A stretch of DNA of 55,658 nucleotides from Candidatus Pollutiaquabacter sp. (GTDB taxonomy: Bacteria > Bacteroidota > Bacteroidia > AKYH767-A > 2013-40CM-41-45). The notes under the pieces are model-generated. The model searched no databases. It saw only the letters and a list, made by a program, of their open reading frames with translations, and had not been told where the DNA came from. Below are positions 19,414 through 21,588 of this stretch, piece by piece; positions within the stretch are counted from its first letter, which is position 1; each line of letters opens with the position of its first letter. Location: positions 1 to 55,658 of the forward strand of contig CANIAS010000012.1 in NCBI GenBank assembly GCA_947465495.1, given 5' to 3'. A program made the translations under genes and the position numbers.

Positions 19414-19541
19414 GGGTTCTACTGAACTCATTTAAAACACTTTTCATACATCAGTTTTAGTTACTAGCAGTATCTAAAGCCTGGCGCCATCAATCATGTT
19501 TCTTTATGACGGGTATCACTGGCATCGCCTGCTCAAGCGAG

Positions 19542-19549
19542 TATCTTTG
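19542..19549 (+). promoter_or_regulatory. -7 promoter box of the unassigned RNA
   Basis: TATCTTTG is an exact match to TAnnTTTG inside a gene-free stretch. It would start transcription near 19553-19556. No TTG-type -33 element is seen at the standard distance. Confidence 0.5.
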
Positions 19550-19553
19550 GTAT

Positions 19554-20022
19554 ATCTTAATTGAAGGAGTCGTTCTTGAATATCGGTTAGGTCAGAAAAA
19601 GGAGATGATAAAAAATCTTTCAAACTGACAGACACAAAGGCAACGAGAGTTGATATCGGTCAAGGTGAAAGTCCTTGATGGATCAGATAACGGATATGTC
19701 CACATGCCGTTGTCCGAAGTCCGGTAGATAGCCGGGTATTTTTGAAACTACTGAAGTATTGCATAAGCATAAAGGTTTCAGCCTTTTTGCCCAAAGACAG
19801 GGGAGACCTGAATCGCGTAAGGGAAACCTACACGACTGATTGAAGCAGAATAAATCGTTTTAAAAGACGAGTCCAACCTGCAAAATCCGAAGCCGGTGTA
19901 AAATCGGTTGCACATATTTCAACTTTGATTGGGGAAGTTGTATTGCAAGGAATAAGTACCGAAAGGTGTGAAGTCTTTGCAGTACATCGGGAGGCTGCCT
20001 CAACAGGGCAGCCTCTTTTTTT
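19554..20022 (+). ncRNA. Unassigned structured non-coding RNA candidate, about 470 nt
   Basis: A 756-base gap (19414-20169) has no ORF of note but dense hairpins. By eye: 19660-19665/19673-19678 (TCAAGG/CCTTGA); 19686-19693/19707-19714 (8 bp with one G-U); 19721-19724/19732-19735; 19771-19775/19782-19786; 19798-19801/19807-19810 (CAGG/CCTG); 19891-19897/19903-19909; 19920-19925/19935-19940 (CAACTT/AAGTTG); and 19944-19950/19975-19981 enclosing a helix capped by a GAAA tetraloop (19957-19968). It is bounded by a consensus -7 box and a strong terminator. Parts recall known RNAs (GGTGAAAGTCC, CAGGGGAGACCTG) but no complete match to RNase P RNA, tmRNA, 6S, SRP, a cobalamin riboswitch or a group II intron was found. 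The 5' end is inferred from the promoter box. An alternative is a decayed group II intron or a long leader, though the terminator argues for a free RNA. Confidence 0.6.
19991..20022 (+). terminator. Rho-independent terminator of the unassigned RNA
   Basis: A perfect 9-bp stem GAGGCTGCC/GGCAGCCTC (19991-19999 with 20007-20015) with a 7-base loop is followed by seven T residues. No ORF ends nearby on the plus strand; the preceding gene stops about 580 bases upstream. Confidence 0.92.
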
Positions 20023-20169: not shown

Positions 20170-21588
20170 ATGATCGATATAGAGCGTGAAAACGATCGCT
20201 TACTGAAATCAACCAATGCTATTTCAAGATCTCGAAGACCATCTGGTAGATTTTGGTTGTATGTTATCCTGTTTATGCAATCGCTTGTTGCTATCGGACA
20301 AGACAGCCATTATTGGAACATTCAATACGGAACAAAAGCTACGCTCCTGGGAGGAATGGTAATCGGCAGTGTCTCAGATTTGAGTGCCACGTATTACAAT
20401 CCCGGCGCCATTTCTCTTTTTGAGAACCCTAAATTGATTATTTCTGCCAAGGTGTATGAATTCGAACGCATCACCATTGATGATGGAGCCGGCCTCAATC
20501 AGGATCTCGTTTCGGATAAAATTGCAACAGCTCCCAATTTTTTTGCCATGAAAATCAAGATGGATTCTACCGAAAACAATAAGTTAGCGATATCTGTTTT
20601 GACCAGGCAGTACATGGACATGAATTTTAGTACCACAGCAATTACGCAAGGAAATAATCCAGCTACTGGTGCAGCCACTACGTCGGGCTATTTTAAAGGT
20701 AACGCTTACCTTAATGAGATGTGGGGCGGTATTTCTTTTTCTCATAAAGTAAATGAAAACATTGGGCTGGGCGTTACCGGATATGGTGTGTACCGGTATC
20801 AGACACTAATGATTCAGAGTATCGTAGAGGAGCTAGAAACCACCAACCAGATTAGCTCGTACGTTAATTTTAAAAACATTGATTATACCAATTATCGAGC
20901 GTTACTTAAAGCAGGACTTGCGGTTAAGCTTCAACCCTTCACCATGGGTTTAACCGTTACAACGCCTAGTTTAAATGTGTTGGGTAGCGGCCATTTTGGT
21001 TATGGAAAGATTATTAATGAACCTGATACCGTGGCGAATAATGTCTACCAAACCAGCTACCAGGATAGCCTAAAAACGATCTATAAGAGTTCGTGGGCTA
21101 TTGGCATTGGTGCGGCATATTGGCACGAGAAATACAACATCCATGTAAGTGCAGAGTGGTATAATGCAGTGAAAGACTATCATCCAATGGTTGTTCAGCC
21201 TTTTGTGGCTCAAAGTTCTGGCGAAATCATTCAAAAAGAAGTAAACCACGAACTTAACAGCGTGTTGAACTTTGGTGTAGGCCTGGACTATAACATTAAT
21301 AAAAAGACCAGTGTTTCCGGAGGATTCACAACCGATTATAGTGCTAAGGACACCGATGTTGTTTCCAATATATCTTTAACCAAGTGGAATATCTATCACG
21401 TAAGCGCGGGATCTAATTTTCAAATTGGCAAGACTGAAATTACATTGGGGTTATCCTACTCTTTTGGAAAAAATCTAATCAATCAGCAGGTGGATATTAA
21501 TAACATCACACGGTTTAACAATGCCATTAAACCGAATGTGAATACGGAGTTTACGCGAATCAAATTGCTGTTCGGTTTTATATTCTAA
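20170..21588 (+). CDS. FadL/OmpP1-like outer-membrane transport protein
   Basis: A 472-residue predicted beta-barrel. A basic N-terminal stretch of about 27 residues precedes a hydrophobic signal core (FWLYVILFMQSLVAIGQ, about 28-44), so the N-region is longer than usual, but no better start is seen. The motif SDLSATYYNPGAISLF near residue 70 matches the FadL/TodX family, where the N-terminal part plugs the barrel and hydrophobic substrates such as long-chain fatty acids diffuse in. The remainder alternates short beta strands and ends in phenylalanine (FGFIF), as outer-membrane barrels do. Substrate is inferred only from the family. The gene follows the RNA terminator, so it is transcribed separately. 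Confidence 0.8.
   Translation: MIDIERENDRLLKSTNAISRSRRPSGRFWLYVILFMQSLVAIGQDSHYWNIQYGTKATLLGGMVIGSVSDLSATYYNPGAISLFENPKLIISAKVYEFERITIDDGAGLNQDLVSDKIATAPNFFAMKIKMDSTENNKLAISVLTRQYMDMNFSTTAITQGNNPATGAATTSGYFKGNAYLNEMWGGISFSHKVNENIGLGVTGYGVYRYQTLMIQSIVEELETTNQISSYVNFKNIDYTNYRALLKAGLAVKLQPFTMGLTVTTPSLNVLGSGHFGYGKIINEPDTVANNVYQTSYQDSLKTIYKSSWAIGIGAAYWHEKYNIHVSAEWYNAVKDYHPMVVQPFVAQSSGEIIQKEVNHELNSVLNFGVGLDYNINKKTSVSGGFTTDYSAKDTDVVSNISLTKWNIYHVSAGSNFQIGKTEITLGLSYSFGKNLINQQVDINNITRFNNAIKPNVNTEFTRIKLLFGFIF

Follow-up and report, generated by a model that had tools for sequence, protein, structure and literature searches.

A putative new family of large, trans-acting structured RNA in Bacteroidota

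Introduction

OLE, ROOL and GOLLD are large, densely structured, noncoding RNAs of bacteria, the functions of which are poorly known (PMC12286853). In Bacteroidota, several independent transcripts have been described in Flavobacterium psychrophilum, including Rfp18, which are structured and have TAnnTTTG promoters (PMC9723704). In flavobacteria this TAnnTTTG (-7) box is located at -12 to -5 (PMC9723704).

Here we describe an RNA encoded in a 55.6-kb stretch of DNA from Candidatus Pollutiaquabacter sp. (the whole of the stretch analysed is referred to as the window). Like OLE, ROOL and GOLLD it is large, densely structured and noncoding, but it has no Rfam match, comes from a different host group and is shorter than OLE (577 nt) and GOLLD. 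It also differs from them in that the examined loci have no phage, prophage or tRNA-island link, and no shared companion protein gene was found. With the F. psychrophilum RNAs it has in common the phylum, the type of promoter and a structured nature, the transcript in the window being a predicted one. An effect on mRNA levels is a feature of Rfp18 only (PMC9723704), and its likeness to the window RNA is one of description.

Results

A gene-free stretch with an exceptional fold

Positions 19542-20021 of the window (+ strand) contain no gene and comprise an exact TAnnTTTG promoter box, an RNA of about 467 nt (approximately 470) and an intrinsic terminator. No plausible gene was found on either strand between 19414 and 20169, and the gene-free stretch, the box and the terminator described in the original prediction were all found in place. 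The box, TATCTTTG (19542-19549), is exact at the homologous place in 7/7 members of the family described below. Placing it at -12 to -5, as in flavobacteria, gives a putative start at about 19554, one base 5' of the first closing helix (19555), and a predicted transcript of 19554-20021.

The minimum free energy of the RNA is -156 kcal/mol, with a z-score of -6.0 on the + strand versus -3.3 on the - strand. When 236 non-overlapping segments of 467 nt, taken from the two strands of the entire 55.6-kb window, were each compared with their own shuffles, the RNA was the extreme outlier at -40.9 kcal/mol relative to its shuffles. The second-best segment (-20.0 kcal/mol) contains the tRNA.

Searches of Rfam 15 at gathering scores gave no match to the RNA, only a tRNA elsewhere in the window, and at E<=10 the RNA region gave chance matches only (best 0.32). 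Apart from an adjacent tRNA and one match attributable to chance, the six relatives gave no match in Rfam 15. ARAGORN found no tmRNA here. This bears out the earlier view that the RNA is not RNase P RNA, tmRNA, 6S or SRP RNA, and no strong match to any known Rfam family emerged.

Relatives in a second family of the class

Blastn searches with the RNA against its own genome, genus and family, 395 genomes of the phylum, phages and plasmids gave nothing beyond the terminator stem and chance matches. With a covariance model of 19650-19838, the order's 41 remaining genomes had no match, and two matches were obtained in G618, a genome from another family of the same class (E=1.3e-12 and 5.0e-12), both of which align with the window RNA over its full length. 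This model was built on the window's own structure, which introduces a small bias. A three-sequence covariance model of 19584-19762, run against 394 relatives of G618, matched a third G618 copy (165 bits) and one copy each in G692 (156 bits), G760 (131 bits) and G762 (113 bits), with an overall range of 113-192 bits. A match in G682 (26.9 bits) was rejected, as it spans only 44 positions and is apparently coding sequence. Searches of phages, plasmids and viral contigs yielded no family member; pattern matches in viral contigs lay in coding DNA and were rejected as chance.

Homologues in other genomes thus amount to six full-length relatives in four genomes (three in G618), all belonging to one genus, and most listed genomes of that genus are without the RNA. 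The seven copies are 425-498 nt long, counted from the first structured base, and identity between the window copy and the individual relatives is 59.5-62%. Presence in 1/42 genomes of the window's own order and in four genomes of one genus elsewhere, that is, patchily in two distant families, fits either horizontal spread or widespread loss.

Covariation supports a shared secondary structure

RNAalifold predicted 137 pairs from a sequence-only alignment of the seven copies. Compensatory changes on both sides are seen in 54/137 base pairs, compared with 21±3 in shuffled alignments (0/500 shuffles were as high), and at least one compensatory pair occurs in 19 of the 20 helices. Standard pairs make up 94.5% of pair cells, against 87.5±0.6% in shuffles and 37-44% when the 3' partners were slid. 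The covariation score, 0.216±0.011 in shuffles, is 0.356 for the real alignment. These shuffles ignore how the copies are related, and the relatives, all six, make up a single group; this point is answered in part by the slid control and by the 23-26 compensatory pairs that separate the window copy from each relative taken singly. Since all six relatives are of one genus, the deep comparison is that of one branch to the window RNA. Each relative alone folds better than its own shuffles (z-scores of -3.2 to -6.9). Pseudoknots among unpaired columns were no more frequent than in permuted controls, and no reading frame is conserved across the seven copies.

Covarying secondary structure and a conserved promoter and terminator of its own (7/7), both marks of an independent structured noncoding RNA, are present. 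The compensatory changes that the original prediction had called for were found, and its count of at least eight hairpins proved conservative.

Architecture of the RNA

The closing helix (helix 1, 19555-19562 with 19927-19934, enclosing 19555-19934) joins the 5' end of the RNA with the end of domain II; 98.1% of its cells are paired and its compensatory changes include A-U/U-G. It encloses a series of 5' hairpins (helices 2-8) and then domain II (helices 9-17), and 3' of it a further hairpin is followed by the terminator. All features described here are on the + strand.

The 5' series begins with the helix 2 hairpin (19564-19577; 100% of cells paired, one compensatory pair) and a two-part hairpin of helices 3 and 4 (19585-19634), which has an invariant UAAAA in its terminal loop and five pairs changed on both sides. 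These are followed at 19635-19652 by CAAAG, present in 7/7 copies, and a GNRA hairpin, CAAC-GAGA-GUUG (helix 5), with a compensatory change from C-G to U-A in two relatives. The helix 6 hairpin (19655-19683) carries GGTGAAAGTCC; 6/11 of its pairs are compensatory and its loop, UG(A/U)(A/G)A(A/G)U, is conserved. The AUG...CAU tip of helix 7 (19691-19709) is invariant. Helix 8 (19719-19737) reads CCGGU/GCCGG in the window and ACAGC/GCUGU in the relatives, with 6/7 pairs compensatory in a poorly aligned stretch where 79.6% of cells are paired.

Domain II (19752-19921) is closed by helix 9 (19752-19763 with 19909-19921; 6/11 pairs compensatory). It contains a second invariant CAAAG with a short hairpin (helix 12, 19792-19811), the loop of which is not conserved; this segment also holds CAGGGGAGACCTG, a string found only in the window copy. 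Beyond the helix 13 hairpin (19813-19835, four compensatory pairs), the long hairpin of helices 14-16 (19838-19887) has 100% of its cells paired and holds the conserved TTGAAGCAGA and a second UAAAA loop, GAAGCAGA and UAAAA being present in 7/7 copies. The helix 17 hairpin (19893-19907) completes the domain. The 3' hairpin (helices 18-19, 19944-19981), lost from the G762 copy, shows compensatory changes in each helix and contains an internal loop, AUAAG/UGAA. In the window it bears the GAAA cap noted previously; the capped hairpin exists, but its 4 bp form only the tip of an outer stem that is longer.

Two elements occur twice each and are invariant in the family, the CAAAG module with its short hairpin and the UAAAA terminal loop; being repeated, they suggest binding sites in more than one copy.

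Upstream dyad and terminator

A candidate transcription-factor site, the dyad AATCA-N10-TGAC (19492-19510), is centred near -53 and is conserved without gaps in the seven copies. Across the family its consensus is AATCA-N10-TGAY, about 50 bp upstream; it is degenerate in the G762 copy, while in the L130 copy it is a perfect 8-bp inverted repeat. When the window was compared with each relative, the -60 to -31 block gave p=0.0005-0.026 and the flanking blocks were mostly not significant. This conservation suggests that transcription of the RNA may be regulated through the dyad.

A terminator stem and T-run end 7/7 copies; in the window (19989-20021) the stem is of 12 bp (19989-20017). The stem sequence GAGGCTG(C/T)C...G(G/A)CAGCCTC also occurs at L002:1501-1540 and L003:1501-1531, and is a host-type terminator of the same genome.

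Genomic context

The RNA is inserted between thioesterase and glycosyltransferase genes. Two genomic loci from family relatives (L024, L025) have the genes for the thioesterase, the glycosyltransferase and TatD side by side with no such RNA, so that the RNA and the outer-membrane protein gene next to it appear to be an addition specific to this lineage. That gene (20170-21588) encodes a beta-barrel protein absent from the family's ten other genomes, inside an otherwise conserved gene order.

The neighbours of the six relatives are a PLP aminotransferase-fold enzyme, the C-terminal part of a type I restriction subunit, a phosphoribosyl pyrophosphate synthetase, a T9SS-sorted protein, a carbamoyl-phosphate synthase small chain and an alpha/beta hydrolase. 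The restriction subunit part is encoded upstream of RNA copy G618b (L135) and belongs to subunit R (PF12008). The TAnnTTTG promoters, and a T9SS sorting domain next to one of the relatives, point to Bacteroidota as the hosts. Within about 10 kb no neighbour gene is common to the loci, except for BON-domain paralogues in G618 (L137, L138, L139), which lie about 1 kb from two RNA copies and about 7 kb from the third and suggest segmental duplication. Because the neighbours differ and no reading frame is conserved, the RNA appears to be free-standing and probably trans-acting. The earlier exclusion of a riboswitch of an adjacent gene also holds, as neighbours are unrelated at every locus and a terminator ends each copy.

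Discussion

We consider these sequences to be a new family of trans-acting structured RNA, with a probability of about 0.8. The new Bacteroidota RNA class proposed in the original prediction gains support from the lack of an Rfam match, the six relatives, the covarying helices and the conserved promoter and terminator. As the fold, promoter and terminator have been kept though four letters in ten have changed, the RNA almost certainly has some function. Structure conserved at 60% identity, together with the promoter, the candidate operator and a location suited to action in trans, points to a regulated functional RNA, as far as can be judged from sequence. It would be transcribed from its own housekeeping-type promoter, controlled by a factor at the dyad, and would fold into a conserved two-domain architecture with a 5'-3' closing helix, a 3' hairpin and a terminator. 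It would then work in trans as a folded RNA, a step we infer from the lack of conserved neighbours and reading frames. The chances are about even that it represents an undescribed class of large trans-acting Bacteroidota RNA, spread between distant lineages with its regulated promoter and acting as a folded RNA or RNP machine, OLE-like in kind.

How such an RNA might act can be proposed only tentatively. The leading candidate, itself short of an even chance, is a scaffold or regulatory RNA to which a host protein binds, the CAAAG-hairpin modules and UAAAA loops being possible contact points, a proposal drawn solely from invariant unpaired motifs. Somewhat less probable is that the RNA mainly base-pairs with several mRNAs through conserved unpaired segments (such as TTGAAGCAGA or the UAAAA loops), as is thought for Rfp18. 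Its own promoter and terminator, its trans location and the exposure of these conserved segments would fit such pairing, and a structured Bacteroidota sRNA affecting mRNAs is already known (PMC9723704), but the length and dense conserved structure are more than pairing needs. A selfish or mobile RNA element, moving with its promoter and having no host function, is an improbable reading. The patchy distribution, the three copies in one genome (G618) and the lineage-specific insertion between thioesterase and glycosyltransferase genes are what such an element might leave; however, no neighbour gene, mobile or other, is common to all loci, no copy of the RNA was seen in phages, plasmids or viral contigs, the BON-domain paralogues near the G618 copies suggest segmental duplication instead, and the structure is under strong constraint. 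It is very unlikely that the RNA acts in cis, as a leader of the outer-membrane protein gene downstream of it. The two are on the same strand, 150 bp apart, and both are absent from the locus in sister genomes, yet the terminator lies between them, relatives of the protein (L030, L031) have no RNA beside them and the RNA relatives have unrelated downstream genes.

The resemblances to group II intron domain I and the cobalamin B12 box that had been noted earlier turn out to be coincidental, and the suggestion of a highly divergent known class is not supported. The GGTGAAAGTCC hairpin, in the 5' part, is kept in the family and is shared with group II introns (RF02003, RF00029), in which GGGGAGA(C/T)CT-like strings also occur. 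Strings similar to the window motifs are likewise present in the class's own group II introns. However, CAGGGGAGACCTG, the second motif and the short string shared with cobalamin riboswitches, is missing from all six relatives, which read CAGGCAACTG, CAGATAACTG and similar at this position. Unlike a cobalamin riboswitch, the RNA also has no match to an Rfam model and no conserved downstream gene. Unlike a group II intron, it has its own terminator; the RF00029 (D5) and group-II-D1D4 models gave no match to the RNA region at E<=10, and the group II reverse transcriptase (TIGR04416) is absent from its genome. ORF-less group II introns exist, so the last point alone is not decisive. A two-motif pattern taken from the window and run on all genome contigs matched one ORF-less group II-like repeat of Acidobacteria, about as expected by chance (about 0.8 hit); the repeat was rejected as a relative, being without significant similarity beyond the two motifs used to pick it, and the true relatives lack the second motif. 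Nor did group II introns from the same order and class (L112, L113, L116-L120) show consistent similarity (best p=0.005 of about 20 tests). A degenerate or domesticated group II intron fragment is already contradicted by the family alignment, and we give it almost no weight.

The Acidobacteria repeat is itself of some interest. It is about 800 nt long, is ORF-less and 85-91% identical in three MAGs (L109:862-1733, L110:1409-2221 and L111, reverse), and has a sub-threshold match to group-II-D1D4-4 (RF02003, 34 bits) with no D5 match, and may be a compact ORF-less group II-like element. A separate ORF-less group II intron with an apparent D5 was seen in a class-mate (G719, L119:1134-1900), with a partial, 93% identical copy (2552-2792) 1.4 kb away.

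The proposed family is a new class in the sense of sequence and structure; biochemically it may still turn out to be a known type of RNA. Its alignment of seven sequences, its tested secondary structure, its promoter and its candidate operator leave the family directly open to cloning, probing and deletion. The regulatory RNA of Bacteroidota is poorly charted, and few large bacterial RNAs have an elaborate structure that is conserved, those known having had unusual roles or assemblies.
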